Assembly (NCBI GenBank): GCA_032622095.1
Contig: CP136062.1
Coordinates: forward strand, 2,666,001 to 2,730,000
Direction: 5' to 3'
Source: Siphonodentalium dalli
Lineage: Eukaryota; Mollusca; Scaphopoda; Gadilida; Siphonodentaliidae
DNA: 64,000 nucleotides
Shown: positions 1,915 to 64,000 of the stretch, one piece after another
How positions within the stretch are numbered: position 1 is the stretch's first letter
Layout: every line of letters begins with the position of its first letter
Notes under the pieces: generated by a model
The model's input: only the letters and a program-made list of their open reading frames with translations
Database searches by the model: none
Told to the model about the DNA's origin: nothing
Position numbers and translations under genes: made by a program

Positions 1915-3308
1915 TTATTATTATTATTCTTCTTAGCAATTTTATAATGAGCATAGCTCAGTCAATACAAGAGTTAGAAAGCTAAAACTTTGAATGTATA
2001 TATATGTATACAAACTCTAGTGCTTAGGCCTATTGAGAATCATGTCCTCACTTGATTTGCAGAGTTATCTCCCTCTATGTGAAAAATTGGTGTTTTCAGA
2101 ACTCCGAAAATATAAGGAGTACAGCACTGAAATTTGGTCGATAGATACATCTTGATATCGACTGAATCGTGAGCACATCAAAAACTTTGTCCGTCTTTCC
2201 TCTCCAGAGTTATCTCCCATATATATGTCAACCTCGAAATGTTCTGATCGCCTGTTCTCACATAGCAAGAAAGATAGCTGGATTTAGTTTCTATGCTAGT
2301 GCTGGCCGTTGTCAATATACTTCACAAAAATAATTTGGACAGGGTCGGACTTACATTTTTTGGTTAGGGTGGGGGCGAAATTTTCGCAATTTTATTTTTG
2401 CGATGATTTCAACCATTTTTACTACCATGTATCTTTAGGACGTACTAATGATCCTCCTGAAAGAATTTTGTAAATCGGTTGAGAAATGTCCAAGTTACAG
2501 ACCATCGAATATTGTATTCATACATTGGCTGAGGAGAAAGTGGTTGTGACCACAACTCCTCATAGACGACGCACATGAGCAGGATTTGGTTTATGTGAGC
2601 GTGTTATTCATAGAGAGAAGACGAACTGGTGCAATTTTTACCAAGATCCAAAAATATTTGTCCCTATTAGGGAGGGGGGCAAAAATTGTCATTTTTTTAT
2701 CGTCTCAGATTCGAACCAAAATTGTTGTGAAGTATCTATAGGACGTTCTGAGAGTACTCAAGAAAGAATTTTGTAAATCGGTTGAAAAATGTAGAAATTT
2801 TGGCCCATTAATTCTTATCAAGTTTACAGAAGATGCACTATGGATTTAAATTCCTACAACCAATCGTCACTTTTTTGGTGTCATTCGATGGGGAATTTCT
2901 AGTACTTCTAAACGATTACCTACTTGCCGTATTATGTCGATGGAAGCCAGAGATAATCGAAATGTATATACTGAACAGCATACATATAGGCCTACATAGT
3001 AGAATATCGCCACAATATCTTACTAAAACCCTACTATATAATAAAGGGGCATCAATTGCGAACACAATCACGCAAAAATTAGCTCGATATCTCGAAAATT
3101 GGCCGAGATATGGTGACTTTTCTACCCGCGTCACCCAATTCCGAGGTATGGGTGGGGGTCACACCAGAACGTTCCAACTGAACACAGAAATGTCAAGAAA
3201 CCATAATATCGACATACCAATCAATTCCGCGCGATTTCATTATTATACTTCCATGTTTTACATGGAAGTATATTGTTTTTGTGATTTTTATTTTTCTCTA
3301 TTATTATT
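1915..3308 (+). repeat. Leader block A1 (diverged monomer, 1.39 kb)
   Basis: A1 begins directly after CTAG with a TTATTATT tract. It reads identically to A2, A3 and A4 wherever I compared them, with constant offsets (8246 bp to A2, 20550 bp to A4), so there are no net indels. Internally it contains two related segments carrying AAGAATTTTGTAAATCGGTTGA and is a diverged member of the B/C/D monomer family. It ends with a 27 bp palindrome (3245-3271) about 60 bp before the first array monomer. A 197 aa ORF (2833-3426) crosses its end into the array; I do not recognise it and treat it as repeat-borne. Confidence 0.9.
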
Positions 3309-6300
3309 ATACTTCCATATTTTAATATGGAAGTATATTGTTATTCAATTTTTTATTTTTCACTATTATTATTATTATTTATTATTCTTAATATATTTTG
3401 AAACCCTTATATCTCAGAAAGTTTAAAAGTTAAAGCATTGAAATTTGGTAGGTATATGCACCATGCCAAGATGCATGGTAATGGAGCATTTAGGTTTGTC
3501 CCCTAACTTGCTTACCAGAGTTATGGCCCTTAAACCAAAATTTTGGAAAAAGTTTGTGCGCAGATTTTCTCCTGTAAGAAGTCAAGCAGCTGAATTCGGT
3601 TCTCGTAATCGTGTTAACTAAGGAAAGGGCACGAATCGGGGAAATTTTCACCAAGGTCCGAAAACAATTTGTTGACCCGGGGAGGGGTGCAAAATTTGTC
3701 AATTTTGTTCTTGTCACCGATTCCAACCATTTTTACTGTCGGGTATCTATACGATGTACTGATGCTACTCGTGAAAGAATTTTGTAAATCGGGTGAGAAA
3801 TGACCAAGTTATAACACATCGAAAAATGTACTAATAAAGTCCATGTGTAGAAAGTGCTTGTGTCCCGATCTTCTCCTAGACGAAGCGCAACAGCTGGATT
3901 TGCTCTATGTGAGCGTCTTAAACATAGACAGAAGACCAAACCAGGACATTTTGACAAAGGTCCGCTCAATTTTTCCTGGGCTAAGGGAGGGGCAAAATAT
4001 GTCAATTTTTTTTTTGTCGCCGATTTGAACCAAAATGGTTGTGAAGTATCTGTAGGATGTACTAAGTATTATCGTGTGTGAATTTTGTGAATCGGTTGAC
4101 AAATGTAGAAATGGTGGCCCTTTCCTTTTTTCAAGTTTACAGGGAAAGCACTATGAATTTATATTTCTTCAACCAATCGTGACGTGTTTGGTATCATTCG
4201 ATGGGGAATTTTTAGCTCTTTTAAACGATTATTCATTTGCTGCATTATGTCGAATGAGTCCGGAGATATTCAAAAAAGTATGAACCAGAAACATACATAT
4301 TGGCCTACATAGTAAAATATCGGCGCAATACCTCACCAAAACCCTGGTAAATATTATAGGGGCATAAAATACGAACACAATGGCGCAAATATTAGCTCGA
4401 TATCTCGAAAATTGGCCGATATATGGCGACTTTTCTACCCGCGTCATCAAATTTCGAGGCATGGGTGGGGGTCACACCAGAACGTTCCAACTGAACACAG
4501 AAATGTCAATAAACCATACTATCGACATTCCAATCAATTCCGAGCGATTCCCTTATTATACTTCCATATTTTAATATGGAAGTATATTGTTATTCAATTT
4601 TTTATTTTTCACTATTATTATTATTATTTATTATTCTTAATATATTTTGAAACCCTTATATCTCAGAAAGTTTAAAAGTTAAAGCATTGAAATTTGGTAG
4701 GTATATGCACCATGCCAAGATGCATGGTAATGGAGCATTTAGGTTTGTCCCCTAACTTGCTTACCAGAGTTATGGCCCTTAAACCAAAATTTTGGAAAAA
4801 GTTTGTGCGCAGATTTTCTCCTGTAAGAAGTCAAGCAGCTGAATTCGGTTCTCGTAATCGTGTTAACTAAGGAAAGGGCACGAATCGGGGAAATTTTCAC
4901 CAAGGTCCGAAAACAATTTGTTGACCCGGGGAGGGGTGCAAAATTTGTCAATTTTGTTCTTGTCACCGATTCCAACCATTTTTACTGTCGGGTATCTATA
5001 CGATGTACTGATGCTACTCGTGAAAGAAGTTTGTAAATCGGGTGAGAAATGACCAAGTTATAACACATCGAAAAATGTACTAATAAAGTCCATGTGTAGA
5101 AAGTGCTTGTGTCCCGATCTTCTCCTAGACGAAGCGCAACAGCTGGATTTGCTCTATGTGAGCGTCTTAAACATAGACAGAAGACCAAACCAGGACATTT
5201 TGACAAAGGTCCGCTCAATTTTTCCTGGGCTAAGGGAGGGGCAAAATATGTCAATTTTTTTTTTGTCGCCGATTTGAACCAAAATGGTTGTGAAGTATCT
5301 GTAGGATGTACTAAGTATTATCGTGTGTGAATTTTGTGAATCGGTTGACAAATGTAGAAATGGTGGCCCTTTCCTTTTTTCAAGTTTACAGGGAAAGCAC
5401 TATGAATTTATATTTCTTCAACCAATCGTGACGTGTTTGGTATCATTCGATGGGGAATTTTTAGCTCTTTTAAACGATTATTCATTTGCTGCATTATGTC
5501 GAATGAGTCCGGAGATATTCAAAAAAGTATGAACCAGAAACATACATATTGGCCTACATAGTAAAATATCGGCGCAATACCTCACCAAAACCCTGGTAAA
5601 TATTATAGGGGCATAAAATACGAACACAATGGCGCAAATATTAGCTCGATATCTCGAAAATTGGCCGATATATGGCGACTTTTCTACCCGCGTCATCAAA
5701 TTTCGAGGCATGGGTGGGGGTCACACCAGAACGTTCCAACTGAACACAGAAATGTCAATAAACCATACTATCGACATTCCAATCAATTCCGAGCGATTCC
5801 CTTATTATACTTCCATATTTTAATATGGAAGTATATTGTTATTCAATTTTTTATTTTTCACTATTATTATTATTATTTATTATTCTTAATATATTTTGAA
5901 ACCCTTATATCTCAGAAAGTTTAAAAGTTAAAGCATTGAAATTTGGTAGGTATATGCACCATGCCAAGATGCATGGTAATGGAGCATTTAGGTTTGTCCC
6001 CTAACTTGCTTACCAGAGTTATGGCCCTTAAACCAAAATTTTGGAAAAAGTTTGTGCGCAGATTTTCTCCTGTAAGAAGTCAAGCAGCTGAATTCGGTTC
6101 TCGTAATCGTGTTAACTAAGGAAAGGGCACGAATCGGGGAAATTTTCACCAAGGTCCGAAAACAATTTGTTGACCCGGGGAGGGGTGCAAAATTTGTCAA
6201 TTTTGTTCTTGTCACCGATTCCAACCATTTTTACTGTCGGGTATCTATACGATGTACTGATGCTACTCGTGAAAGAATTTTGTAAATCGGGTGAGAAATG

Positions 6301-6454
6301 ACCAAGTTATAACACATCGAAAAATGTACTAATAAAGTCCATGTGTAGAAAGTGCTTGTGTCCCGATCTTCTCCTAGACGAAGCGCAACAGCTGGATTTG
6401 CTCTATGTGAGCGTCTTAAACATAGACAGAAGACCAAACCAGGACATTTTGACA
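3309..6454 (+). repeat. Array B: 1249 bp monomer, about 2.5 copies
   Basis: Monomers start with the palindromic header ATACTTCCAT...ATGGAAGTAT at 3309, 4558 and 5807. The third is cut after about 647 bp, just past AGACCAAACCAGGACATT, where X1 begins. The copies are nearly identical; one difference I saw is TTT/GTT near 3780 versus 5029. Short ORFs of 61-90 aa recur on both strands of each copy and overlap each other, as expected from homogenised repeats rather than genes. Confidence 0.95.
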
Positions 6455-7745
6455 ATGTCAAAAATTACACAAATGACCACTGGCGATATATTTCAACATC
6501 CATTCATGTTGGCGCACTGTATTAAGTGTTGTATTGGCTAATGGGTAATCACTCAAAACAAAGTCGGCTGTCTGTCTTGCCGACCGGTCGTGATTATGCG
6601 GTTTTATCACGATGCGGCTTAAAAATGACATATTTTGAGTCCAAAAACGGTCGAAATTCATTAGTTTTAGAATAGTAGTTCGTTTTGTTTTCACTTTTTT
6701 TAAAACCCCCATTTTTTACAAAAATAATTCTCGACTTTGACATTTGAGAATTAACAGAACTGTGGTGTCCGGCGTATAGTGTTATAACACTTCTCAGCAT
6801 GGACCACGTTTTCATAAAGCACAATCCGTCTTATGCGCGGACTTTCGCTTGCAGTTCTCAATTCAATTGAAACTATTTTCTATCCGTTCACGCGCCCGTA
6901 AACCATTTTAATATATGATATATTCAAATTGAATGAATGGGAGTCAGCGTGTCCCGTCCGACGCCCCAACCTTGCCACCCCTTAGTCGCTAATTTTGGTA
7001 TCATAATTTCGGAACGTGACACTTTGCGGTTTGGTATTGGTTCACCATCTGACATAGTGCATACTTTTGTTGAATTCAGATCTGACCATTTAAAAATTGT
7101 CTCTTTATCATCTGTATGTGTCACGAGTGAAAATATATGACTTTATTGTCCGACTGTTAAGACCGCCGATTGCATATTTCGCATTAATTGGACGAGACGT
7201 AATGTAAAGTCTTATAACTTACGAATAGGCGACAACGTCGACGTCGTACATTCGTTCGCTACTCGGAAAATATACAATAAATGCCTTAAAGCGCCGACTA
7301 ATTCACCACCTGCGGGTATACAAGAATATGAATCACACCAAAATTAAGCGAATTGCATATGGAATGTGCAGGTATAAGCTGCCATGCATATATCATTTCC
7401 AGAATGCTACCATTTCATGACAATCTATTTGTTAAAATACGGCACCTTAAACTGTTGGGAACATCGCGATATAGGCAAGCGAGCAAAGAGAGTTTAATGT
7501 CATCATACCATACGCTATTTCGCTGTTCCGAAATGGGTGGTCGATCAATGTAGCATAATTACATTGAACGACATATATAAGTATGTTTTTGTGTGAATAA
7601 CGATTGTTAACTTGGTATCATGAACTTATGCATGACTGTGAAGACTTGCAATAACATATTAAATGGTAAAATACGCGCATTCATATCCGTATATTCTCAA
7701 AAATATCCGTCTATTTTACAAGCTCGACATGCTATATTTGTTTAT

Positions 7746-8262
7746 GGTATACCAGGGGGGGGGGGGTGAAAACAAAAATTCCGGCACGTATGCCGGGGTG
7801 GGTGGGTGATCAAATCCACCAACAAGCAATTTTTTCCGCAACTAAAAAAAATTATTTCCTGCTTGTTTTTTAGTGTTTTAGCAACTGTAAACTGACTGCA
7901 GGCAGTTATCGTGTTGTATTTTGTTGCAAATTTTTAAATCCAAGATGGCCGCTGGCAGCCATGTTTTTTTGGCCGAATGACCTCAAAAGGACTCATTCCT
8001 ATTTACATGTCCATGTCAACATCCATGATAAATAGTATGCACAGAAATTCGTATACAGCTGTTTACAGTGAATTCCCCCCCGCAAATCTCTGTTTTAGTG
8101 TTAAAGGGGGGGGGTGGGTGTCAAAAAATGGTCGGAAAAAACTGCCGAAAACGGAAAAAAAAATTTGCGAAGGGGGTGGGTGGGTACAAAAAATGATCGA
8201 AAGGGAAAAAATGCCATACGTGCCTGAAATTCTTGTCCGACCCCCCCCCCCCCTGGGTATAC
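7746..8262. mobile_element. GC-terminal MITE-like element (copy in X1)
   Basis: The left end GGTATACCA plus 12 G and the right end, a C run plus TGGGTATAC, are inverted copies. The similarity continues inward for about 50 bp (AAAATTCCGGCACGTATGCC on the left; its inverted, slightly altered version at about 8210-8235). Because GGTATACC is itself nearly palindromic, the target duplication (TA, GTATA or GGTATAC) cannot be resolved from the ends. The interior is non-coding and has GGGTGGGTGGG tracts. The X2 counterpart is 20086-20592. Confidence 0.55.
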
Positions 8263-8575
8263 TACCGTTTCAACACATCGGCTATTTATCATTTTGCTGG
8301 TGAGAAGGCGTATGTTCAGTTTGGTGCTATTTATGTACACAGAAAAGGCACCATTACTCGGGAAAGCAACATACCGAAATGCATATAGATGTACGCGAAT
8401 CATGTTACGTTCTCACACAATGCAGCTTTCCCAAATCCGCGCTCTTTAAAATAGAATTGGCTGCATGACTGGCCTACTTCTGATGGCACAGTGTGTTGCG
8501 CACCTGTCCGATTAAGTCGCTTTGAACCAAAAATGTATACAAAATTCGCACAAGCTGTGGAAAAGTTCGCGATCT

Positions 8576-8617
8576 TGGACAGTCAGTACAATCGGTTGGA
8601 CAGTCAGTACAATCGGT
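8576..8617 (+). repeat. 21 bp tandem duplication
   Basis: TGGACAGTCAGTACAATCGG plus T occurs twice in a row. The same two-copy arrangement is in X2 at 20912-20953, so it predates the X1/X2 duplication. Confidence 0.9.
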
Positions 8618-9453
8618 ATAAACGTTTGTAATGACATAACGTGTCTTGACAGCATTACCTGTTATGCTATTTTGATATGTTTCTAAATTATATTTAATGC
8701 TTGATTCCTGATACACATATATAGTGACATTTCAGTGATCTTTCTAGAGCGTTCCCGAGCATGATAGAACTTCAAATAAAATATATTCGCCTTTGTCCCA
8801 TTCTGGTGATTTGGGCTCGTTTTTAGCATGTTACTAATTTTATAATAAGGCGTAATCAAGACATGTGTTATCAGTTGTGTGAGTGATTGCCATTCGCGCA
8901 TAATTATTTCATAAATAAATATATCCGCTGCACGTAGATATAACCGTCACTTATAGTACTGGCCGTTGAAATCACTGACCCGACAAACTGATAAACCAAG
9001 ACTTAACACTTGGCAAATTACAGATCGGCATTGATTTAAAACTTCGCACTTCATTGTGGACAGACTATAACTATCCGTATATTTCACGAGAATATACCAT
9101 CCCATAGCAGTTATAATTTTTAACATCTCAAGTCTTTAATTTGGAATATAGGCACAAGAGATAGACACATGTGTGCATGTGGAACCCGTGCATGTTCTTT
9201 ATTCCCGTTGCCAATTAAATATATATATTGTACACATGTGGGTATGTATACTAATAAAACCGAACTGTGTGTGTGTTCATTTGTTTGTCGGTCTGACCTG
9301 CTATTGGTGCCCAACCGGTTGGATCATGACAAACTAAAATTGGAACACACGGTGAATTGTCACGTGGAGTGTCATGGGATAGGTGCATCTGACGTCGTGT
9401 GATTTAATTTGGAATTCATGAATAATTTAATAACATGCTTACATCTATATCTA

Positions 9454-9623
9454 CAGTATGCCCTAAGTAATCGACTCCTTAAACATGGAAGAATTATGGG
9501 TAATATTTCAGGATTTAGCGGGAAATATAGCCTGCTGACATTCATCCGAAAGCTCTCCTGAATCCCGAAAAGTTACCCATAATTCTGCTGTGTTTAAGGG
9601 GTCGATTACATAGGGCATTACTG
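9454..9623. mobile_element. Tc1/mariner-type MITE (copy in X1)
   Basis: The element starts CAGTATGCCCTAAGTAATCG and ends with the inverted counterpart CGATTACATAGGGCATTACTG. TA flanks each side (9452-9453 and 9624-9625). The arms pair for about 60 bp each, including AGAATTATGGGTAA, so nearly the whole 170 bp folds back. CAGT termini with TA duplication are typical of Tc1/mariner derivatives. The X2 copy is at 21757-21925. Confidence 0.7.
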
Positions 9624-10118
9624 TATATCTGCGAATTTATGTCTGTCTGCCTGTGTCTGTCTTCTACAGAAATTACAGGAGACCATCTAGATGATACCAA
9701 AGGGTCTACTAGGGGTCACTTTTACGAGAAATATAATTTCAAAAGTAGCCTCATTCTTAATATTTTATTTTTGCGAACTGATGTGTTTATGATAAACATG
9801 TATCATAATATAAGGTCTGAAGTATGCATGGGTGTAACTAAATAAATACTTCAATAGTTGTGGAACGGATTAATCGAGATAAACAAAATTACGATCGAAA
9901 AGGTGAGCCACTACTTATATTCCATGACTTTTTAAAGTTATAGATATAGTTAGAATTATTGTGGTTATGGTTACGGCTAGAGCATGATTATGCTTATAGA
10001 AACATTTAGTATTGGGACATGGTACGGGTTGCCGATAGGTATGGTTATGTTAAGATTTGGGTTATGGGAAAGGTAATGATTGAGAGGGGATTTGGATTGG
10101 AATATATATGATAATTAT

Positions 10119-10160
10119 ATGGAAGTATCAAACTTCCAATAGGAAGTTTAAAAATTCTAG
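10119..10160 (+). other. Hairpin-CTAG terminus T1 (end of unit 1)
   Basis: ATGGAAGTAT (10119-10128) is followed by an 8 bp stem AAACTTCC / GGAAGTTT with loop AATA (10130-10149), then AAAAATT and CTAG (10157-10160), and then TTAT. From the stem to the end is 11 nt, the spacing usual for Helitron 3' ends. Confidence 0.65.
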
Positions 10161-11552
10161 TTATTATTATTATTCTTCTTAGCAATTTTATAATGAGCAT
10201 AGCTCAGTCAATACAAGAGTTAGAAAGCTAAAACTTTGAATGTATATATATGTATACAAACTCTAGTGCTTAGGCCTATTGAGAATCATGTCCTCACTTG
10301 ATTTGCAGAGTTATCTCCCTCTATGTGAAAAATTGGTGTTTTCAGAACTCCGAAAATATAAGGAGTACAGCACTGAAATTTGGTCGATAGATACATCTTG
10401 ATATCGACTGAATCGTGAGCACATCAAAAACTTTGTCCGTCTTTCCTCTCCAGAGTTATCTCCCATATATATGTCAACCTCGAAATGTTCTGATCGCCTG
10501 TTCTCACATAGCAAGAAAGATAGCTGGATTTAGTTTCTATGCTAGTGCTGGCCGTTGTCAATATACTTCACAAAAATAATTTGGACAGGGTCGGACTTAC
10601 ATTTTTTGGTTAGGGTGGGGGCGAAATTTTCGCAATTTTATTTTTGCGATGATTTCAACCATTTTTACTACCATGTATCTTTAGGACGTACTAATGATCC
10701 TCCTGAAAGAATTTTGTAAATCGGTTGAGAAATGTCCAAGTTACAGACCATCGAATATTGTATTCATACATTGGCTGAGGAGAAAGTGGTTGTGACCACA
10801 ACTCCTCATAGACGACGCACATGAGCAGGATTTGGTTTATGTGAGCGTGTTATTCATAGAGAGAAGACGAACTGGTGCAATTTTTACCAAGATCCAAAAA
10901 TATTTGTCCCTATTAGGGAGGGGGGCAAAAATTGTCATTTTTTTATCGTCTCAGATTCGAACCAAAATTGTTGTGAAGTATCTATAGGACGTTCTGAGAG
11001 TACTCAAGAAAGAATTTTGTAAATCGGTTGAAAAATGTAGAAATTTTGGCCCATTAATTCTTATCAAGTTTACAGAAGATGCACTATGGATTTAAATTCC
11101 TACAACCAATCGTCACTTTTTTGGTGTCATTCGATGGGGAATTTCTAGTACTTCTAAACGATTACCTACTTGCCGTATTATGTCGATGGAAGCCAGAGAT
11201 AATCGAAATGTATATACTGAACAGCATACATATAGGCCTACATAGTAGAATATCGCCACAATATCTTACTAAAACCCTACTATATAATAAAGGGGCATCA
11301 ATTGCGAACACAATCACGCAAAAATTAGCTCGATATCTCGAAAATTGGCCGAGATATGGTGACTTTTCTACCCGCGTCACCCAATTCCGAGGTATGGGTG
11401 GGGGTCACACCAGAACGTTCCAACTGAACACAGAAATGTCAAGAAACCATAATATCGACATACCAATCAATTCCGCGCGATTTCATTATTATACTTCCAT
11501 GTTTTACATGGAAGTATATTGTTTTTGTGATTTTTATTTTTCTCTATTATTA
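10161..11552 (+). repeat. Leader block A2
   Basis: A2 begins just after CTAG with the same TTATTATT tract as A1 and shows no difference from A1 where I compared them. It runs directly into A3 through a longer ATT tract, without an intervening CTAG. The repeat-borne ORF here is 168 aa instead of 197 aa because of that junction. Confidence 0.9.
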
Positions 11553-12946
11553 TTATTATTATTATTCTTCTTAGCAATTTTATAATGAGCATAGCTCAGT
11601 CAATACAAGAGTTAGAAAGCTAAAACTTTGAATGTATATATATGTATACAAACTCTAGTGCTTAGGCCTATTGAGAATCATGTCCTCACTTGATTTGCAG
11701 AGTTATCTCCCTCTATGTGAAAAATTGGTGTTTTCAGAACTCCGAAAATATAAGGAGTACAGCACTGAAATTTGGTCGATAGATACATCTTGATATCGAC
11801 TGAATCGTGAGCACATCAAAAACTTTGTCCGTCTTTCCTCTCCAGAGTTATCTCCCATATATATGTCAACCTCGAAATGTTCTGATCGCCTGTTCTCACA
11901 TAGCAAGAAAGATAGCTGGATTTAGTTTCTATGCTAGTGCTGGCCGTTGTCAATATACTTCACAAAAATAATTTGGACAGGGTCGGACTTACATTTTTTG
12001 GTTAGGGTGGGGGCGAAATTTTCGCAATTTTATTTTTGCGATGATTTCAACCATTTTTACTACCATGTATCTTTAGGACGTACTAATGATCCTCCTGAAA
12101 GAATTTTGTAAATCGGTTGAGAAATGTCCAAGTTACAGACCATCGAATATTGTATTCATACATTGGCTGAGGAGAAAGTGGTTGTGACCACAACTCCTCA
12201 TAGACGACGCACATGAGCAGGATTTGGTTTATGTGAGCGTGTTATTCATAGAGAGAAGACGAACTGGTGCAATTTTTACCAAGATCCAAAAATATTTGTC
12301 CCTATTAGGGAGGGGGGCAAAAATTGTCATTTTTTTATCGTCTCAGATTCGAACCAAAATTGTTGTGAAGTATCTATAGGACGTTCTGAGAGTACTCAAG
12401 AAAGAATTTTGTAAATCGGTTGAAAAATGTAGAAATTTTGGCCCATTAATTCTTATCAAGTTTACAGAAGATGCACTATGGATTTAAATTCCTACAACCA
12501 ATCGTCACTTTTTTGGTGTCATTCGATGGGGAATTTCTAGTACTTCTAAACGATTACCTACTTGCCGTATTATGTCGATGGAAGCCAGAGATAATCGAAA
12601 TGTATATACTGAACAGCATACATATAGGCCTACATAGTAGAATATCGCCACAATATCTTACTAAAACCCTACTATATAATAAAGGGGCATCAATTGCGAA
12701 CACAATCACGCAAAAATTAGCTCGATATCTCGAAAATTGGCCGAGATATGGTGACTTTTCTACCCGCGTCACCCAATTCCGAGGTATGGGTGGGGGTCAC
12801 ACCAGAACGTTCCAACTGAACACAGAAATGTCAAGAAACCATAATATCGACATACCAATCAATTCCGCGCGATTTCATTATTATACTTCCATGTTTTACA
12901 TGGAAGTATATTGTTTTTGTGATTTTTATTTTTCTCTATTATTATT
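11553..12946 (+). repeat. Leader block A3
   Basis: A3 is a tandem second copy of the leader, exactly 1392 bp downstream of A2. It is followed by array C. The longest ORF of the window (250 aa, 12471-13223) is created here by fusion of the A reading frame with the first C monomer. It is not conserved as a unit in other arrays. Confidence 0.9.
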
Positions 12947-44745: not shown

Positions 44746-44748
<3 letters not shown>

Positions 44749-47286: not shown

Positions 47287-47288
47287 TT

Positions 47289-49151: not shown

Positions 49152-49401
49152 AATTTTTACTGATTTCACTTCCGGTTTGGAAGCACGGGCGTGTTGGTAT
49201 GTATCTCAAAATGTTTTTGGTGCAGATATTGATGAAATTTGGTGGATATAATCTGCGGTTGCCGAGTATTGCTATGAGCTACAGTATCACCATACTGACA
49301 TGTGTCTCCTGAAAACTGACGCTTTATCAGGTGACACAATTTACCGTCATTGGCGAACATGGAAGTATCGAAATTGCTGTGCAATTACAGTTTCATTCTA
49401 G

Positions 49402-50792
49402 TATTATATTTCTAATTCTTCCGTTTTTTTTTCAATAACATCCTTATATCTCAGGAACGGCTGGACCGATTCACCTGCTGTTTTCGGTTTCGGATATAAC
49501 TTTGAAATATCTAGTAAAATGGCCTATCGAGAATTTTGTCCGACCTTGACCTTCGGAGTTATCGCCATTTTACTGATTTTTGGGGGGTTTTCACGCCACT
49601 AAAATGACTTGAAAAATCGAGGTTTGAGTTCTTATATCGTTAAAATGGCTTGACCGATTAATTTGAAATTTGGTACTTTCATAGCCATTGAGTATACGAA
49701 GTCGATGTACAGATAGCGAATTTTGTCTGACCTTGACCTTTCGCAACGACGCTCTTTATCGGTTTTATTGTTGTGAACGTATCTCCTCCTAAACGGCTTG
49801 AGATATCGAGTTCGGACTTTTTTCATTATTTGCGCATGTATGTGTGTTATGAACCGCCGAAAAATAATAGGGTTCGCACTTCCGGTTTAAAAGTTCGCTA
49901 CTGGTCGAAGAATAAAAGAACGCTCTTTATATGAAATCCAGAACAGCTCGAGATATTGAGTTGGGACTTTTTGCATGATGTGCAGCAAAGTCTGCGCTCT
50001 CGAACGATATATATAGTTAACGGATTTCACTTCCGGTTCGGGAGAACGGGCGTGTGGGTATGTATCTTAAAACTATTTTGGCGCAGATTTTGATGAAATT
50101 TGTTGGACATAATCTTTAGTTGTCGCTGACCACTACTCTGCTCAGATTTTTTAAATCGGACTTAAACTTCTCGAGTTATGGCTGCTTAAAAACCTGATTT
50201 GTATGGGGTTTTCGGAGCCCTAGAATGACTTGCAAACCTGCAAAATCGATGTTTGATTTCTTATATCGCTGAAACGACTGGGCCAATTGATTTAAAATGA
50301 TGTACCTCCATAGCCATTGGGCATTCGCAGTCGATGCACAAATAAGGAATTTCGTCTGACCTTGACCTTTGGAAATAACGCTCTTTATCTGTTTTATTGT
50401 TGTTAACGTATCTCCTCCTAAACGGCTTGAGATATCGGGTTCGGACATTTTTCATTATTTGCGCATGCACATCTGTTATGAACCAACGAAACATGATAGG
50501 GGTCGCACTCCCGGTTTACAAGTTAACTATGGTCGAATAATAAAAGGACGCTCTTTATACGAAATCCAGAATGGTTTGATATATTGAGTTGGGACTTTTG
50601 CGTACCTGCATAGCCATTGAACATACCCAGTCGATGCACTAATATGGAATTTTGTATGACCTTGAGCTTAAGAAACAACTATGAGCTACAGTATCTCCAT
50701 ACTGATATGGACGCTCTATCAGATGACACAATTTCAGTCATTGGTGAACATGGAAGTATCGAAATTGCTGTGCAATTACAGTTTCATTCTAG
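49402..50792 (+). mobile_element. Small unit E2 (two subunits, 1391 bp)
   Basis: E2 begins TATTATATTTC after CTAG and ends with ATGGAAGTAT (50750), AATTGC / GCAATT and CTAG (50789-50792). Its closing block is slightly shortened. It has the same length as E5. Confidence 0.5.
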
Positions 50793-53189: not shown

Positions 53190-55188
53190 TTATACTTCCA
53201 TGTTTTAACATGGAAGTATATTGTAATTCTTCTGGCTTTTATTCTTCTTCTTCTTATTCCAATAACATGTCTTAATCTCCGGAACGGCTGGACCGATTCA
53301 CCTACTGTTTTCGGCTTTAGTATATAACTTTGGAAGTTCTCTGAAAATGGCCCATTGAGAATTTCGTCCGACCTTGACCTTCGGAGTTATCGCCATTTTG
53401 TTGATTTTTTTGGATTTTTCGAGTCATTAAATGACTTGCAAAATCGAGGTTTGATTTCTTATATCGTCAAAATAACTTGACCGAATGATTTGAAATTTGG
53501 TACCTGCATAGCCATTGAGTATACGAAGTCGATGCACAAATAGGGAATTTCGTGTGACCTTGAACTTTGGAAACAACGCTCTTTATTTGTTTTATTGTTG
53601 TTATCGTATCTCCTCCTAAACGGCTTGAGATATCGAGTTCGGACTTTTTTCATGATTTGCGCATGTATGTGTGTTATGAACCGCCGAAAAATTATAGGGT
53701 TCGCACTTCCGGTTTAAAAGTTCGCTACTGGTCGAAGGATAAAACAACACTCTTTATAGGAAATCTAGAACGGTTTGAGATATTGAGTTGGGACTTTTTG
53801 CATGGTGTGCAGCAAACTCTGCGCTCTCGAATGATATATAACATTAACGGATATCTCTTCCGGTTTGGGAGAACGGGCGTGTGGGTATGTATCTCAAAAC
53901 TATTTTGGCACAGATTTTGATGAAATTTAGTGGACATGATCTTTAGCTGTCGCTGACCACTACTCCGTTCAGATTTTTAAAATAGGACTTAAGATTCTCG
54001 AGTTATGGCTGCTTAAAAACCTGATTTTTATGGGGTTTTCGGACCCCTAGAATGACTTGCAAAACTGCAAAATCGATGTTTGATTTCTTATATCGTTCAA
54101 ACGGCTTTGCCAATTGATTTGAAATTTTGTACCTGTATAGCCATTGAGCATTCGCAGTCGATGCATCAATAAGGAATTTTGTCTGACCTTGACCTTTGGA
54201 AACAACGCTATTTATCTGTTTTATTGTTGTTAACGTATCTCCTTCTAAACGGCTTGAGATATCTGGTTCGGACTTTTTTCAATATTTGCGCATGCACATG
54301 TGTTACTATCCACCGAAAAATAATAGGGGTCGCCCTTCCGGTTTTAAAGTTGACCCTGGGTTGAATAATAAAAGAACGCTCTTTATACGAAATCCAGAAC
54401 GGCTTGAGATATTGAGTTGGGACTTTTTGCGTTATGTGCATCCAACTGTGCGATGTATAAAGATAAATATAGTTAACGGATTTCACTTCCGGTTCTGGAG
54501 AACGGGCGTGTGGGTATGTACATCAAAACTGTTTTGGTGCAGATTATGATGAAATTAGGTGGATATAATCTCTAGTTGCCGCTGATCACTATCCCACTTG
54601 AATTTTTAAAATCGGGCTAAAACTTCTTGAGTTATGGCTGCTTAAATACCTGATTTTTGGGGAGGTTTTGTGCCACCATAATGATTTGCAAATCGAGATT
54701 TGATTTCTTATATCGTCAAAACGGCTCAGCCAATTGATTTGAAGTGTTGTACCTGCATAGCTATTGAGCATACGCAGTCGATAGACTAATAGAGAATTTC
54801 GTCTGACCTACTTCTTTTGGGAACAACGCCCTTTATCGTTGTTATTATTTTTAAGGTATCTCCCCCAAAACGGCTGGATATATCGGGTTCGGACTTTTTG
54901 CATTATGTGCATCAGATTCTGCGCTGTATAATGATGTATATAGGTTACGGTTTTTACTTCCTATTTGGGGGAAATGGCGTGTTGGTATGTATCTCAAATT
55001 GTTTTTGGTGCAGATTTTGGTGGAATTTGGTGGATAGAACCTGTGGTGACCGAGTATTACTATGAGCTATAGTATCACCATACTGATATGTGTCTCCTGA
55101 CAACTGACACTTTATCAGGTGACACAATTTCCGCCATTGGGGAACATGGAAGTATCGAAATTGCTGTGCAATTACAGTTTCATTCTAG
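53190..55188 (+). mobile_element. Small unit E4 (three subunits, 1999 bp)
   Basis: E4 begins with a palindromic header (53192) and ends at CTAG 55185-55188. Its third subunit is shortened and runs directly into the closing block. Confidence 0.5.
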
Positions 55189-56579
55189 TATTATATTTCT
55201 AATTCTTCCGTTTTTTATTATTTTTTTTTCAATAACATGCCTTAATCTCCGGAACGGCTAGACCGATTTACCTGGTGTTTTCGGCTTTAGTATATAACTT
55301 TGAAAGTTCTCTGAAAATGGCCCATTGAGAATTTCGTCCGACCTTGACCTTCGGAGTTATCGCCATTTTGTTGATTTTTGGGGGTTTTTCGCGACACAAA
55401 AGTAACTTGCAAAATCGATGTTTGAATTCTTATATTGTCGAAATGGCTTGACCGATTGATTTGAAATTTGGTACCTGCATAGCCATGGATTATACGAAGT
55501 CGATGCACAAATAGGGAATTTCGTGTGACCTTGAACTTTGGAAATAACGCTCTTTATCGGTTTTATTGTTGTGAACGTATCTCCTCTGAAACGGCTTGAG
55601 ATATCGATTTCGGACTTTTTTCGTTATTTGCGCATGTATGTGTGTTATGAACCGCCGAAAAATTATAGGGTTCGCACTTCCGGTTTAAAAGTTCGCTACT
55701 GGTCGAAGGATAAAACAACGCTCTTTATATGGAATCTAGAACGGCTTGAGATATTGAGTTGGGACTTATTGCATTATGTGCAGCAAACTCTGCGCTATCG
55801 AACGATATATATAGTTAACGGATATCACTTCCGGTTCGGGAGAGCGGGCGTGTGGGTATGTATCTCAAAACTATTTTAGCGCATATTTTGATGACATTTG
55901 GTAGACGTCATCAGTAGATGCCACTGGTTGCTATGCAACTCGAATTTTAAACATCGGACATAAACTTCGAGAGTTATGGCTGTTTAAAAACCTGGTTTAT
56001 TTCCGACCTTGACCTTGACCTTCAGTGTTATCGACATTTTGTTGATTTTTGGGGGGTCTTCGTGCAACTAAAATGACTTGCAAAATCGATGTTTGATATC
56101 TTATATCGCCGAAACGGCTTGGCCGATTGATTTGAAATTCGGAACCCTTTTAGCCATTGCGCATTGGCAGTCGATGAACTAATAGGGAACTTCGTCTGAC
56201 CTTGACCTTTGGGTACAACGCTCTTTATCGGTTTTAATGTTGTGAAGAGATCTCCTCCTAAACGGCTTGAGATATCGGGTTCGGACTTTTTTCATTATTT
56301 GCGCATGTATGTGTCATGAACCGTCGAAAAATGATATGGTTCGCACTTATATATAGGGTACTGATTTGACTTCCGGTTTGGGAGAACTGGCGAGTGGGTG
56401 CAGAATTTGATGAAATTTGGTGGATAAAATACTGTGGTTGTTGACTAGTACTATGGTATATAGTATCACAATACTCGCATGTGTCTGCTGACAACTAACT
56501 CGTTAACGGACGACACAAGTTCCCGTCATTGGCAACATGGAAGTATCGAAATTGCTGTGCAATTACAGTTTCATTCTAG
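55189..56579 (+). mobile_element. Small unit E5 (two subunits, 1391 bp)
   Basis: E5 begins with the palindrome-less header and ends at CTAG 56576-56579. A deletion near 56350 joins an internal subunit position to a late one. GACCTTGACC is extended to three half-sites at 56005. Confidence 0.5.
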
Positions 56580-59500
56580 TATTATATTTCTAATTCTTCT
56601 GGGCTTTTTCCGATAACATGCCTTAATCTCCGGAACGGCTGGACCGATTTACCTGCTGTTTTCGACTTTAGTATATAACTTTGGAAGTTCTCTGAAAATA
56701 GCCTATTGAGAATTTCGTCCGACCTTGACCTTCGGAGTTATCGCCATTTTGTTGATTTTTGGGGTTTTTTCGCGACACAAAAGTAACTTGCGAAATCGGT
56801 GTTTGATCTCTTATATCGTCGAAACGGTTTGACCGATTGATTTGAAATTTGGTACTTGCATAGCCATTGAGTATACGAAGTCAATGTACAAATGGGGAAT
56901 TTCGTCTGACCTTGACCTTTGGAAACAACGCTCTTTATCGGTTTTATTGTTGTTATCGTATCTCCTCCTAAACGGCTTGAGATATCGAGTTCGGACTTTT
57001 TTCGTTATTTGCGCATGTATGTGTGTTATGAACCGCCGAAAATGTATAGGGTTCGCACTTCCGGTTTAAAAGTTCGCTACTGGTCGAAGGATAAAACAAC
57101 GCTCTTTATAGGGAATCTAGAACGGCTTGAGATATTGAGTTGGGACTTTTTGCATTATGTGCAGCAAACTCTGCGCTATCGAACGATATATATAGTTAAC
57201 GGATATTACTTCCGGTTCGGGAGAGCGGGCGTGTGGGTATGAATCTTAAAACTATTTTAGCGCATATTTTGATGACATTTGGTAGACGTGATCAGTAGAT
57301 GCCACTGATTGCTATGCAACTCGAATTTTAAAAATCGGAAATAAACTTCGATAGTTATGGCTGTTTAAAAACCTGGTTTATTTCCGACCTTGACCTTCAG
57401 AGTTATCGACATTTTGTTGATTTTTGGGGGGTCTTCGCGCCACTAAAATGACTTGCAAAATCGAGGTTTGATTTCTTATATCGCCGATACGGCTTGGCCG
57501 ATTGATTTGAAATTCGGGACCTTCTTAGCCATTGCGCATTGGCAGTCGATGAACTAATAGGGAACTTCGTCTGACCTTGACCTTTGAGTACAACGCTCTT
57601 TATCGGTTTTATTGTTGTGAAGAGATCTCCTCCTAAACGGCTTGAGATATCGGGTTCGGACTTTTTTCATTATTTTCTCATGTTTGTGTGTTATGAACTG
57701 CCGAAAAATGATAGGGTTCGCACTTCCGGTTTAAAAGTTCGCTACTGGTCGAAGGATAAAACAACGCTCTTCATATGCAATCCAGAAGGGCTTGAGATAT
57801 CGAGTTGGGACCTTTTGCATGATGTGCAGCAAACTCTGCGCTCTCTAATGATATATATAGTTGATGGATTTCACTTCCGGTTTGGGAGAACGGGCGTGTG
57901 GGTATGTATCTCAAAAACTATTTTGGCGCAGATTTTGATGAAATTTGGTGGACATCATCACTAGCTGCCGCTGAGAACTATGCCACTTGAATTTTTTTAA
58001 TCGGACTTACACTTCTAGTTATTCTTCTTATTCCAATAACATGCCTTAATCTCCGGAACGGCTGGACCGATCCACCTGCTGTTTTCGGCTTTAGTATATA
58101 ACTTTGGAAGTTCTCTGAAAATGACCCATTGAGAATTTCGTCCGACCTTGAACTTCGGAGTTATTGCCATTTTGTTGATTTTTTGGGGTTTTTCGCAACA
58201 CAAAAGTGACTTGCGAAATCGATGTTTGATCTCTTATATCGTTGAAACGGTTTGACCAATTAATTTGAAATTTGGTACTTGCATAGCCATTGAGTATACA
58301 AAGTCGAGGCACAACTAGGGAATTTCGTGTGACCTCGAACTTTGGAAACAATGCTCTCTATCTGTTTTATTGTTGTGAACGTATCTCCTCCGAAACGGCT
58401 TGAGACATCGAGTTCGGACTTTTTCATTATTTGCGCATGTATGTGTGTTATGAACCGCCGAAAAATGATAGGGTTCGCACTTCCGGTTTAAAAGTTCGCT
58501 ACTGTTCGAAGTATAAAACAACGCTCTTTATAGGGAATCTAGAACGGCTTGAGATATTGAGTTGGATCTTTTTGCATTATGTGCCGCCAACTCTGCGCTC
58601 TCGAACGATATATATAGTTAACCGATTTCACTTCCGGTTCTGGAGAGCGGGCGTGTGGGTATGTATCTCAAAACTATTTTAGCGCATATTTTGATGACAT
58701 TTGGTAGACGTCATCAGTAGATGCCACTGATTGCTATACAACTCGAATTTTAAAAATCGGACATAAACTTCGATAGTTATGGCTGTTTAAAAACCTGGTT
58801 TATTTCCGACCTTGACCTTCAGAGTTATCGACATTTTGTTGATTTTTGGGGGTTCTTCGCGCAACTAAAATCGATGTTTGATTTCTTATATCGCCGAAAC
58901 GGCTTGGCCGATTGATTTGAAATTGGGAACCCTTTTAGCCATTGAGCATTGGCAGTCGATGAACTAATAGGGAATTTCGTGTGACCTTGACCTTGGGAAA
59001 CAACGCTCTTTATATGTTTTATTGTTGTTCCAATATCTCCTCCGAAACGGCTTGAGATATCGGGTTCGGACTTTTTTCATTATTTGCTCACTTAAGTGTG
59101 TTATGTATCGGCGAAAAATGATAGGGTTCGCACTTCCGGTTTAAAAGTTCGCTACTGGTCGAAGAATAAAAGAACGCTCTTTATATGAAATCCAGAAGGG
59201 CTTGAGATATCGAGTTGGGACTTTTTGCATGATGTGCAGCAAACTCTGCGCTCTTTAATGATATATATAGTTAATGGATTTCACTTCCGGTTTGGGAGAA
59301 AGGGCTGTGGGTATGTATCTCAAAAACTATTTTGGCGCAGATTTTAATGAAATTTGGTGGACATCATCACTAGTTTCCGCTGATCACTATGCCACTTGAA
59401 TTTTTAAAACGGACTTAAACTTCTAGAGTTACGGCTGCTTGAAAACGATATTTTTATGGGGTTTTTTACGCCCCTAAAATGCCTTGCAAAATTGCAAAAT

Positions 59501-60112
59501 CGATGTTTGATTTCTCTTGTAGAAACGGCTCAGCCAATTGATTTGAAATTTCACACCTGCATAGTCATTTAGTTTGACCTTGACCTTTGGAAACAACGCT
59601 CTTTATCTGTTTTATTGTTGTTCCAGTATCTCCTCCGAAACGGCTTGAGATATCGAGTTCGGACTTTTTTCATTATTTGCGCATGTATCTGTGTTATGTA
59701 CCACCGAAAAATGATAGGGTTCGCACTTCCAGTTTAAAAGTTCGCTACTGGTCCAAGAATAAAAGAACGCTATTTATATGCAATTCAGAAGGGGTTGAGA
59801 TATCGAGTTGGGACTTTTTGCATGATGTGCAGCAAACTCTGCGCTCTCTAATGATATATATATATAGTTAACGGATTTCACTTCCGGTTTGGGAGAACGG
59901 GCGTGTTGGTATGTATCTCAAATTGTTTTTGGTGCAGATTTTGATGGAATTTGGTGGATAGAATCTGTGGTTGCCGAGTATTACCATCAGCTACAGTATC
60001 ACCATACTGATATGTGTCTCCGGAAAACTGACACTTTATCAGGTGACACAATTTCCGTCATTGTCGAACATGGAAGTATCGAAATTGCTGTGCAATTACA
60101 GTTTCATTCTAG
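56580..60112 (+). mobile_element. Small unit E6 (five subunits, 3533 bp)
   Basis: E6 has five subunits, the third starting with a fresh internal copy of the ATGCCTTAATCTCCGG opening at about 58040. It ends at CTAG 60109-60112. E6 and E7 are the same length with no net indels. I count roughly a dozen substitutions between them (for example 57697, 58404 and 59033). Confidence 0.55.
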
Positions 60113-63100
60113 TATTATATTTCTAATTCTTCTGGGCTTTTTCCGATAACATGCCTTAATCTCCGGAACGGCTGGACCGATTTACCTGCTGTTTTCGGCT
60201 TTAGTATATAACTTTGGAAGTTCTCTGAAAATAGCCTATTGAGAATTTCGTCCGACCTTGACCTTCGGAGTTATCGCCATTTTGTTGATTTTTGGGGGTT
60301 TTTCGCGACACAAAAGTAACTTGCGAAATCGATGTTTGATCTCTTATATCGTCGAAACGGTTTGACCGATTGATTTGAAATTTGGTACTTGCATAGCCAT
60401 TGAGTATACGAAGTCAATGTACAAATGGGGAATTTCGTCTGACCTTGACCTTTGGAAACAACGCTCTTTATCGGTTTTATTGTTGTTATCGTATCTCCTC
60501 CTAAACGGCTTGAGATATCGAGTTCGGACTTTTTTCGTTATTTGCGCATGTATGTGTGTTATGAACCGCCGAAAATGTATAGGGTTCGCACTTCCGGTTT
60601 AAAAGTTCGCTACTGGTCGAAGGATAAAACAACGCTCTTTATAGGGAATCTAGAACGGCTTGAGATATTGAGTTGGGACTTTTTGCATTATGTGCAGCAA
60701 ACTCTGCGCTATCGAACGATATATATAGTTAACGGATATTACTTCCGGTTCGGGAGAGCGGGCGTGTGGGTATGAATCTTAAAACTATTTTAGCGCATAT
60801 TTTGATGACATTTGGTAGACGTGATCAGTAGATGCCACTGATTGCTATGCAACTCGAATTTTAAAAATCGGAAATAAACTTCGATAGTTATGGCTGTTTA
60901 AAAACCTGGTTTATTTCCGACCTTGACCTTCAGAGTTATCGACATTTTGTTGATTTTTGGGGGGTCTTCGCGCCACTAAAATGACTTGCAAAATCGAGGT
61001 TTGATTTCTTATATCGCCGATACGGCTTGGCCGATTGATTTGAAATTCGGGACCTTCTTAGCCATTGCGCATTGGCAGTCGATGAACTAATAGGGAACTT
61101 CGTCTGACCTTGACCTTTGAGTACAACGCTCTTTATCGGTTTTATTGTTGTGAAGAGATCTCCTCCTAAACGGCTTGAGATATCGGGTTCGGACTTTTTT
61201 CATTATTTTCTCATGTTTGTGTGTTATGAACCGCCGAAAAATGATAGGGTTCGCACTTCCGGTTTAAAAGTTCGCTACTGGTCGAAGGATAAAACAACGC
61301 TCTTCATATGCAATCCAGAAGGGCTTGAGATATCGAGTTGGGACCTTTTGCATGATGTGCAGCAAACTCTGCGCTCTCTAATGATATATATAGTTGATGG
61401 ATTTCACTTCCGGTTTGGGAGAACGGGCGTGTGGGTATGTATCTCAAAAACTATTTTGGCGCAGATTTTGATGAAATTTGGTGGACATCATCACTAGCTG
61501 CCGCTGAGAACTATGCCACTTGAATTTTTTTAATCGGACTTACACTTCTAGTTATTCTTCTTATTCCAATAACATGCCTTAATCTCCGGAACGGCTGGAC
61601 CGATCCACCTGCTGTTTTCGGCTTTAGTATATAACTTTGGAAGTTCTCTGAAAATGACCCATTGAGAATTTCGTCCGACCTTGAACTTCGGAGTTATTGC
61701 CATTTTGTTGATTTTTTGGGGTTTTTCGCAACACAAAAGTGACTTGCGAAATCGATGTTTGATCTCTTATATCGTTGAAACGGTTTGACCAATTAATTTG
61801 AAATTTGGTACTTGCATAGCCATTGAGTATACAAAGTCGAGGCACAACTAGGGAATTTCGTGTGACCTCGAACTTTGGAAACAATGCTCTCTATCTGTTT
61901 TATTGTTGTGAACGTATCTCCTCCGAAACGGCTTGAGATATCGAGTTCGGACTTTTTCATTATTTGCGCATGTATGTGTGTTATGAACCGCCGAAAAATG
62001 ATAGGGTTCGCACTTCCGGTTTAAAAGTTCGCTACTGTTCGAAGTATAAAACAACGCTCTTTATAGGGAATCTAGAACGGCTTGAGATATTGAGTTGGAT
62101 CTTTTTGCATTATGTGCCGCCAACTCTGCGCTCTCGAACGATATATATAGTTAACCGATTTCACTTCCGGTTCTGGAGAGCGGGCGTGTGGGTATGTATC
62201 TCAAAACTATTTTAGCGCATATTTTGATGACATTTGGTAGACGTCATCAGTAGATGCCACTGATTGCTATACAACTCGAATTTTAAAAATCGGACATAAA
62301 CTGCGATAGTTATGGCTGTTTAAAAACCTGGTTTATTTCCGACCTTGACCTTCAGAGTTATCGACATTTTGTTGATTTTTGGGGGGTCTTCGCGCAACTA
62401 AAATCGATGTTTGATTTCTTATATCGCCGAAACGGCTTGGCCGATTGATTTGAAATTGGGAACCCTTTTAGCCATTGAGCATTGGCAGTCGATGAACTAA
62501 TAGGGAATTTCGTGTGACCTTGACCTTGGGAAACAACGCTCTTTATATGTTTTATTGTTGTTCCAGTATCTCCTCCGAAACGGCTTGAGATATCGGGTTC
62601 GGACTTTTTTCATTATTTGCTCACTTAAGTGTGTTATGTATCGGCGAAAAATGATAGGGTTCGCACTTCCGGTTTAAAAGTTCGCTACTGGTCGAAGAAT
62701 AAAAGAACGCTCTTTATATGAAATCCAGAAGGGCTTGAGATATCGAGTTGGGACTTTTTGCATGATGTGCAGCAAACTCTGCGCTCTTTAATGATATATA
62801 TAGTTAATGGATTTCACTTCCGGTTTGGGAGAAAGGGCTGTGGGTATGTATCTCAAAAACTATTTTGGCGCAGATTTTAATGAAATTTGGTGGACATCAT
62901 CACTAGTTTCCGCTGATCACTATGCCACTTGAATTTTTAAAACGGACTTAAACTTCTAGAGTTACGGCTGCTTGAAAACGATATTTTTATGGGTTTTTTT
63001 ACGCCCCTAAAATGCCTTGCAAAATTGCAAAATCGATGTTTGATTTCTCTTGTAGAAACGGCTCAGCCAATTGATTTGAAATTTCACACCTGCATAGTCA

Positions 63101-63645
63101 TTTAGTTTGACCTTGACCTTTGGAAACAACGCTCTTTATCTGTTTTATTGTTGTTCCAGTATCTCCTCCGAAACGGCTTGAGATATCGAGTTCGGACTTT
63201 TTTCATTATTTGCGCATGTATCTGTGTTATGTACCACCGAAAAATGATAGGGTTCGCACTTCCAGTTTAAAAGTTCGCTACTGGTCCAAGAATAAAAGAA
63301 CGCTATTTATATGCAATTCAGAAGGGGTTGAGATATCGAGTTGGGACTTTTTGCATGATGTGCAGCAAACTCTGCGCTCTCTAATGATATATATATATAG
63401 TTAACGGATTTCACTTCCGGTTTGGGAGAACGGGCGTGTTGGTATGTATCTCAAATTGTTTTTGATGCAGATTTTGATGGAATTTGGTGGATAGAATCTG
63501 TGGTTGCCGAGTATTACCATCAGCTACAGTATCACCATACTGATATGTGTCTCCTGAAAACTGACACTTTATCAGGTGACACAATTTCCGTCATTGTCGA
63601 ACATGGAAGTATCGAAATTGCTGTGCAATTACAGTTTCATTCTAG
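60113..63645 (+). mobile_element. Small unit E7 (near-identical tandem copy of E6)
   Basis: All E6 landmarks recur at +3533 bp, and the copy boundary coincides exactly with CTAG|T. The unit ends at CTAG 63642-63645. The age of the pair is clearly lower than that of the subunits inside it. Confidence 0.6.
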
Positions 63646-64000
63646 TATTATATTTCTAATTCTTCTGGGCTTTTTCCGATAACATGCCTTAATCTCCGGA
63701 ACGACTGGACCGATTCGCCTACTGTTTTCGGCTTTAGTATATAACTTTGGAAGTTCTCTGAAAATGGCCCATTGAGAATTTCGTCCGACCTTGACCTTCG
63801 GAGTTATCGCCATTTTGTTGATTTTTGGGGGTTTTTCGCGACACAAAAGTAACTTGCGAAATCGAGGTTTGAATTCTTATATCGTCGAAACGGCTTGACC
63901 GGTTGATTTGAAATTTGGTACCTGTATAGCCATTGAGTATACGAAGACGATGCACAAATAGGGAATTTCGTGTGACCTTGAACTTTGGAAACAACGCTCT
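63646..64000 (+). mobile_element. Small unit E8 (partial, runs off the window)
   Basis: E8 opens like E6 and E7 (TATTATATTTC, then TCTCCGGAACGACTGG) but diverges within 100 bp, so it is not a third copy of the 3533 bp unit. Confidence 0.5.

Follow-up and report, generated by a model that had tools for sequence, protein, structure and literature searches.

Gapless arrays of Helentron-type transposons in the scaphopod Siphonodentalium dalli, probably built by serial self-targeted insertion

We analyzed a 64,000-bp window of the genome of the scaphopod mollusk Siphonodentalium dalli (GCA_032622095.1, contig CP136062.1; G000:C2:2666001-2730000 in our notation; the assembly comprises 2.23 Gb in nine contigs and contains Wnt genes, as befits an animal). 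The window holds transposable elements of the Helentron/HINE type, joined head to tail or inserted into a satellite. The original prediction had cut it at eleven junctions of the form ATGGAAGTAT-hairpin-CTAG|T into three large and eight small units with nothing between them. All eleven junctions are present at the positions claimed. Each consists of ATGGAAGTAT, then 24, 28, or 29 nt containing an inverted repeat, and then CTAG|T, and the segments that follow start at positions 1915, 10161, 22465, 47287, 49402, 50793, 53190, 55189, 56580, 60113, and 63646. Three 3'-end types are represented (E0, one junction; E, three; B, seven). With up to one mismatch, ATGGAAGTAT occurs 79 times in the window (6.7 expected), a count reached in none of 100 shuffles. 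The junctions are gapless, as had been proposed; the units, however, need redrawing, since the large ones open with 1392-bp satellite monomers, the stretch from 47287 to 47338 is a 52-bp 5' stub, and five segments start at an internal site (TATTATATTTC).

The window opens with E0 (1 to 1914; + strand, as are all features below unless stated otherwise), the 3' part of an element with the third 3'-end type, which ends in ATGGAAGTAT-GATTCCATGGAATC-CTAG and whose 5' end is not visible in the window (junction parse); it carries a 130-bp tandem repeat (1365 to 1699). Up to position 47286, three elements then alternate with a satellite, L, the host of their insertions. L occupies 1915 to 3306 (the claimed start of large unit 1), 10161 to 12944 (two monomers, 10161 to 11552 and 11553 to 12944, by sequence comparison), and 22465 to 23856 (by repeat comparison), i.e., exactly 1392, 2 x 1392, and 1392 bp; the claimed large units 1 and 3 therefore open with one monomer and unit 2 with two. 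These opening 1392 bp are 100% identical among the three units and to a copy on contig C1, and the first monomer matches every other L copy compared at 100% identity, while the sequence behind them differs by 3 to 11% where alignable. (The BLAST comparisons of the window, of L copies, and of the autonomous elements P1 and P2 described below omit matches under set lengths or identities.) The intact L-L junction, TA(TTA)6TTC, is found 26 times in the genome, once in the window (11545 to 11567, with the empty docking tract (TTA)6 at 11547 to 11564) and seven times in a row at exact 1392-bp spacing on contig C8. The element edges in L read TA(TTA)2|TTATACTTCC on the left and CTAG|(TTA)4TTC on the right, each three times in the window, and their sum is the empty junction. 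Because intact L-L junctions exist without an element and the tract counts add up, L is an independent satellite and E1, E2, and E3 are elements that inserted into it, all in the same phase. The large units were accordingly rejected as single elements, L monomers also occurring back to back with no element between them; the 5' boundaries originally assigned to them are wrong, and the elements themselves begin at 3307, 12945, and 23857.

All three are HINE-type elements with several 5' modules and one 3' end. E1 (3307 to 10160) has three modules (starting at 3307, 4556, and 5805) and the 3' end CAAACTTCC-AATA-GGAAGTTT...CTAG; E2 (12945 to 22464; junction and repeat comparison) has five modules; and E3 (23857 to 47286; 23.4 kb; repeat comparison) has fifteen, with monomers of ~1247 bp that are 99.8 to 99.9% identical. 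The predicted range of 2 to about 15 internal copies is thus roughly right, the modules numbering 3, 5, and 15. E3 also contains a (CT)29 tract (44688 to 44745) and, near its 3' end, a weak sub-threshold hAT dimerization match (E 0.0073; 46791 to 47240, - strand), possibly a nested hAT fragment.

The rest of the window is an array of B-family units that runs past its right edge. It begins with the 52-bp 5' stub (47287 to 47338), which lies ahead of the next element's 5' end, and continues with element U4 (47339 to 49401; junction parse), the 3' segment U5 (49402 to 50792), elements U6 (50793 to 53189) and U7 (53190 to 55188), both with a full 5' palindrome, the 3' segment U8 (55189 to 56579), segments U9 and U10 (56580 to 63645; 3533 bp each), and the start of U11 (63646 to 64000), a further segment that is 94 to 95% like U9/U10. 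At 99.69% identity, U9 and U10 are a local tandem duplication. Subfamily tags just before the 3' subterminal inverted repeat (subTIR) read GGCGAAC in U4 and U6, GGTGAAC in U5, GGGGAAC in U7, GGCAAC in U8, and GTCGAAC in U9 and U10; four of these five tags recur in copies outside the window, and GGGGAAC was not seen among those copies. A 68- to 72-bp tandem repeat before the B 3' end (48926 to 49147) is common to the autonomous element (L040:8999-9475). In the array to the right of the window, one unit pair on the opposite strand is likewise joined CTAG|TTATAC (L050:1500-1960).

The five window segments at 49402, 55189, 56580, 60113, and 63646 start at TATTATATTTC, an internal site of the autonomous element. 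The text before it, in 51 listed occurrences, is GTTTCATTCTAG (34 cases), CTATCAGATCAG (12), CTTCCGGTTTAA (3; also found inside B elements), CCGTGCCCCTAG (1), or GAACATACCCAG (1), and a clear host TTA or TAA flank precedes none of these 51. A genome pattern search for TATTATATTTC starts returned no match with W at the far position and 51 with S there. Many array segments begin at TATTATATTTCTAATTC (including L040:7729); the autonomous element has this site internally, after CTATCAGATCAG and ~2 kb from the 3' end. A 5' stub ahead of the next element's 5' end, with a truncated unit starting in the TTN microsatellite further on, occurs in the window and in two other arrays (I10 and C9a). We infer that such stubs come from residents split by later insertions, and each would pair with a truncated unit; for the window stub, the candidate remainder starts at G000:C2:2736212.

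Copies elsewhere in the genome define the element, which opens with the 5' palindrome TT-ATACTTCCATR and closes with ATGGAAGTAT-hairpin-CTAG. The B-type 3'-end 43-mer has 262 exact genome copies (reversed control, 0). T directly follows CTAG in 100 of 100 B-family ends listed elsewhere in the genome and in 82 of 82 E-family ends found in the genome (counted by eye), in searches that both demand W at the last position and therefore leave C/G flanks, including the window's TTATTATTATTATTC in the E search, uncounted. Fractions of listed ends refer to 100 of 263 matches on contigs C1 to C3 for the B 3' ends and to 100 of 231 matches on C1 to C4 for the second listing. Among 100 listed 5' ends, 69 are host-flanked (TTA, 54; TAA, 13; TGA, 1; TAT, 1), i.e., TTA or TAA precedes 67 of the 69, while ~6% would be expected from composition (an arithmetic estimate); another 23 follow CTAG (3 with TA between) and 8 are preceded by what seems to be a copy of the first 52 bp of the element itself. 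Of eight loci with isolated elements or short arrays, seven begin with TTATACTTCC right after host TTA or TAA, the exception being I09, whose 5' end is damaged, and all eight end in CTAG|TT. The joined flanks of I13 have six ungapped matches at 100% over the full 220-bp construct (40 places scored), and those of I04 match at 97 to 98% over 220 bp; I09 was excluded from this comparison for its damaged 5' end. Isolated copies thus end at CTAG|T, as had been predicted, and the exact empty site shows no target duplication. From these flanks and empty sites, the element is TTATAC...CTAG, inserted without target duplication at a TTA^TTA-like site, the nick being ambiguous between A^T and T^T because the bases are shared.

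One- or two-unit insertions in three satellites, two of which are ~80% alike, have the same total (TTA)n count as the empty site. Left and right counts are 2 + 4 = 6 for E1, E2, and E3, 1 + 5 = 6 for P1, 3 + 5 = 8 for P2, and 4 + 5 = 9 for the two-unit array C9b; each sum equals the count in a neighboring intact monomer (for P1, in two neighbors; a second neighboring monomer of P2 has 3 TTA). In L, in the P1/P2 satellite, and in the C9b satellite (L048), 4 to 5 TTA remain on the right at any tract length, as if counted from the right-hand border; I08, with 11 TTA on the right, is an exception to this register.

Two short arrays also bear on whether the stacking is real. I10 has three units with exact host flanks, and C9b has two units inside a satellite with the tract count conserved. 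Repeats of this kind are hard to assemble, and an artifact could have strung dispersed copies together; this is highly improbable, given such small arrays and the 47 of 100 listed B ends that abut another element start across C1 to C3. C9b likewise bears on end bypass, in which transposition starting at one unit's 5' end skips that unit's own CTAG and stops at the next, so that a composite arrives in one step. Its two-unit block keeps the TTA count and its second unit starts at TATTATATTTC, without a free 5' end, as a bypass product would, and the process is named for Helitrons in the available text of PMC5148889 and PMC6431247. Against it, the same unit pair was not found at a second locus among the few such loci fetched, and as a general source of the arrays we regard it as quite unlikely.

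Canonical Helitrons have a 5' TC terminus and a 3' CTRR with a hairpin, insert between A and T, and have no inverted repeats. A canonical assignment was rejected here: CTAG conforms to CTRR and insertion at A^T would be allowed, yet the elements start with TTATAC and carry inverted repeats. The original reading of the units as Helitron-like holds in a more specific form, with end structure, target, and autonomous partner all pointing to the Helentron/HINE type (Helitron2-like). The subTIRs, for which at least 11 identical bp some 2 to 4 nt from the 5' terminus are diagnostic, lie 2 nt from the 5' end (B, ATACTTCCATG/CATGGAAGTAT; E, ATACTTCCATA/TATGGAAGTAT). The 3' terminus lies 38 to 43 nt from the start of ATGGAAGTAT, or 28 to 33 nt from its end; only the count from the outer edge agrees with the ~38 to 60 bp given in the available text of PMC4067079, which leaves the edge of measurement unspecified. 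A 3' palindrome, expected ~8 to 35 bp from the terminus, is present in all three end types; its folding is significant in E (z, -4.3), weak in B (z, -1.2), and weak and not significant on its own in E0 (z, -0.55). An inverted repeat right behind the 5' subTIR (as in DINE-1 and Cg_HINE) or a palindromic subTIR is also diagnostic; here a 13-bp stem forms, with folding z scores of -7.3 and -7.9, and the empty sites show a T-rich target without duplication. As for coding capacity, the 10 scanned of the 36 stop-to-stop open reading frames (ORFs) of at least 120 aa in the nonautonomous elements gave no Pfam family above cut-off and two sub-threshold matches.

The original prediction had also called for an autonomous relative with Rep/helicase and the same ends, and this was found. 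PF14214 has at least 151 genome matches, two of which, on C1, are flanked on both sides by B-type ends in the same orientation; the elements concerned, P1 and P2, share both end types with the window elements. P1 (39.5 kb) lies in the (TTA)n tract of the second satellite and P2 is ~38.1 kb long. The P1 frame of 2739 aa contains OTU, DUF6570, Helitron_like_N, and PIF1 domains and the HxH motif PHWH (HWH); in P2, the two fetched frames (1219 and 1471 aa) meet where two sequence pieces join and are part of a 2691-aa open frame. No AP endonuclease fused to Rep/helicase, the mark of a strict Helentron, is among the seven Pfam matches of the 2739-aa frame, and because no endonuclease was found, the family is classed from its predicted domains as Helitron2-like rather than strict Helentron.

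P1 and P2 are 90% identical over the first ~1.5 kb, 93 to 99.6% over much of the coding part, and 97% over the last 3 kb; between these, the portions of P2 retrieved (up to 3 kb; 13.8 to 19.9 kb) match P1 in only two ~300-bp stretches under the filter used. The 5' half of P1 (~C1:214394000-214413000) barely matches P2 where both were read and contains no ORF of 150 aa, which may reflect exchanged or captured cargo. A C2 copy of the autonomous element shares the 3' end (3' end only). A 250-aa Rep piece has fifteen genome matches whose identity, when rounded, is 100%, and 11 of 12 copies of the internal 3' marker CTATCAGATCAG|TATTATATTTC have a near-identical Rep 11 to 15 kb upstream on the same strand. 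One Rep copy, at C2:2766510, is 36.5 kb to the right of the window, and the 3' end of its element reads CTAG|TTATACTTCC into the next unit, head to tail. Because of this direct join, at least one autonomous element is itself an array member. The mobility of the window elements is most likely supplied by these relatives of 38 to 39.5 kb, which have the same end types. Two further loci, C8:82475387 and C8:4875782, were rejected as partners, there being no matching ends within 20 kb around each; they are relatives with 58% and 61% identity in the 250-aa Rep piece. A second large PF14214 group, with frames of ~1600 aa and in some cases identical scores, probably consists of canonical-type Helitrons.

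The original prediction attributed the head-to-tail order to rolling-circle replication with missed termination, the resulting concatemers being inserted whole. The junctions are exactly those of a joined-end circle, and the close match of U9 and U10 over their full length fits copies of one template. We compared 26 sequences (60 bp trimmed at the 5' end and 45 bp at the 3' end), with similarity taken as the shared 14-mers of the smaller set, a measure in which repeat number weighs little. The median was 0.302 for 13 adjacent pairs and 0.294 for 294 between-locus pairs (maximum, 0.71); 18 same-locus nonadjacent pairs (median, 0.321) were counted in neither group. Only U9/U10 (0.97) clearly stands out: C5c_b/C5c_c, at 0.70, might also suggest a common template but is unexceptional beside the best unrelated pair (I08/I12; 0.71), U8/U9 reach 0.51, and 11 of the 13 adjacent pairs share 0.16 to 0.51, inside the range of unrelated copies. 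Successive units of a rolling-circle concatemer should be copies of one template, and a single pair out of 13 has that appearance. Most adjacent units also differ in their 3' subfamily tag, and in 3 of the 32 listed cases where a B end meets a TTATACTT start, a dinucleotide (TA) separates the two units. Because neighbors are no more alike than unrelated copies and docking-tract counts sum to the empty site, missed termination is disfavored for most junctions, and as an explanation of the arrays it is very unlikely.

Tandem units would also result if transposition had provided only a few seed insertions and unequal crossing-over and segmental duplication had done the rest. U9/U10 and the 99.8 to 99.9% identity of the E3 modules speak for such copying, as does a series of unit spacings of 1588, 1556, and 1694 that occurs twice on C3 (27645889-27650758 and 27737868-27742737), ~92 kb apart, indicating large-scale duplication of array segments. 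Yet most neighbors in the window are only roughly 80 to 94% identical, and some array units are nearer to isolated copies elsewhere than to their neighbors (U5 to I09, U7 to I03). As the builder of the arrays, this process is unlikely.

We consider it probable that the window was built by serial self-targeted insertion of these elements, which leave no target duplication, together with local duplication and expansion of 5' modules. An element, TTATAC(TTCCATR palindrome)...(ATGGAAGTAT)-hairpin-CTAG, would insert between TTA (or TAA) and TT. Because the element brings its own TTA, each insertion would leave TTA|TTATAC at the 5' boundary, a fresh TTA^TTA target, and stacking on itself would follow from this restored site. 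An incoming circle or strand, mobilized in trans by the autonomous relatives, would join its CTAG end to the TTATAC at the resident's 5' edge and push the resident to the right; the result would be a gapless CTAG|TTATAC junction with a new left edge that is again a site, so that arrays would grow at the 5' side and the leftmost unit would be the latest. Further docking sites would be the (TTA)n tracts of the three satellites and, within the elements themselves, the TTN microsatellite close behind the 5' end. Single units were later copied by local duplication (U9/U10; the C3 spacing series), and some blocks may have traveled together through end bypass. In E1 to E3, the 5' module alone appears to have multiplied, to 3, 5, and 15 copies per single 3' end, and the near identity of the E3 modules would require a later amplification.

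Several observations weigh against this account. The empty sites of I12 are 3 to 7 bp longer than the joined flanks, and no empty site for I03, I08, or I10 (searched twice) or I18 (searched once) was listed among the 40 places scored. For 7 of 18 array units, the closest match is a member of the same array, so local duplication is common. U5-type segments lack a 5' end and so are unlikely to have arrived as independent units. Insertion at a resident's 3' edge (CTAG^TTA) would yield an identical junction, and docking on the 5' side is favored only because host left flanks are TWA in 67 of 69 cases.

The features shared with HINE/DINE-1 elements and Helentrons, as set out in the available text of Thomas, Vadnagara, and Pritham (2014; PMC4067079), are subTIRs (here of 11 bp or more, starting 2 nt inside the 5' end), a 5' inverted repeat, a 3' palindrome, a T-rich target without duplication, central repeats, and a Rep/helicase partner. 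Relative to the Helentrons described there, the elements differ in the TTA^TTA-like target, the lack of an endonuclease domain seen in the frame, the 38- to 39.5-kb size of the autonomous element, and the gapless arrays of many units. Like Cg_HINE of the Pacific oyster and Pearl (PMC7492417, in part), they combine a subTIR, a microsatellite, satellite-like central repeats, and a 3' subTIR/palindrome, with empty sites in other repeats; in the oyster, the repeats average 140 to 180 bp and no autonomous partner could be linked, whereas the modules here are ~1.25 kb, include the 5' end, and are linked to a partner by both end types. FoHeli of Fusarium oxysporum, a Helitron2-type element with asymmetric inverted repeats, offers a parallel in its self-insertion, to which the excerpted account (PMC5148889) ascribes elements having several 5' termini but a single 3' terminus; one copy lies 2 bp upstream of another's 5' end. 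Those are single cases, while in the present genome another unit directly adjoins 47 of 100 listed B ends, and insertion can be distinguished from concatemer formation.

Plant centromeric tandem Helitrons likewise combine several 5' ends with one 3' end, a pattern ascribed to aberrant rolling-circle replication (Xiong et al. 2016, as cited in part of PMC12628747). E1 to E3 match that layout, but here it is confined to them, and the B array units keep their 3' ends. The same source outlines double insertion as a satellite origin (McGurk and Barbash), in which an insertion-site preference yields tandem copies of elements that make target duplications; the route to tandem copies is alike, whereas here there is no target duplication and the element's own first bases restore the target. 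Maize Helitrons reach 39 kb with captured gene fragments in the portion of PMC6431247 consulted, which places P1 at the upper end of reported sizes. Tandem Helitrons and self-insertion are already in print (PMC5148889 and PMC5876387, both in excerpt). In the literature searched, which excludes most subscription journals and is represented partly by excerpts, we found no description of target rebuilding by an element that makes no target duplication.

The element type is known, and the locus is a well-resolved variant of tandem, self-inserted Helitrons in which the origin of the stack is legible base by base. Debate over the origins of satellites and tandem transposon arrays usually relies on old loci whose details have blurred. 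Here, insertion can be told apart from rolling-circle concatenation at base resolution, thanks to subfamily tags, exact empty sites in satellites, additive tract counts, and fifteen near-identical Rep copies. In addition, satellite-carrying HINEs are linked to an autonomous partner, which the oyster study, in its available text, reports being unable to do (PMC7492417). We give even chances to a broader proposal: that a transposon making no target duplication can feed its own tandem arrays endlessly, its first bases and the host TTA rebuilding the site. TTA-tract satellites would then act as landing platforms of fixed phase, the arrays would gather autonomous members (38 to 39.5 kb where measured), and the locus would be a self-growing nursery for both transposon and satellite.

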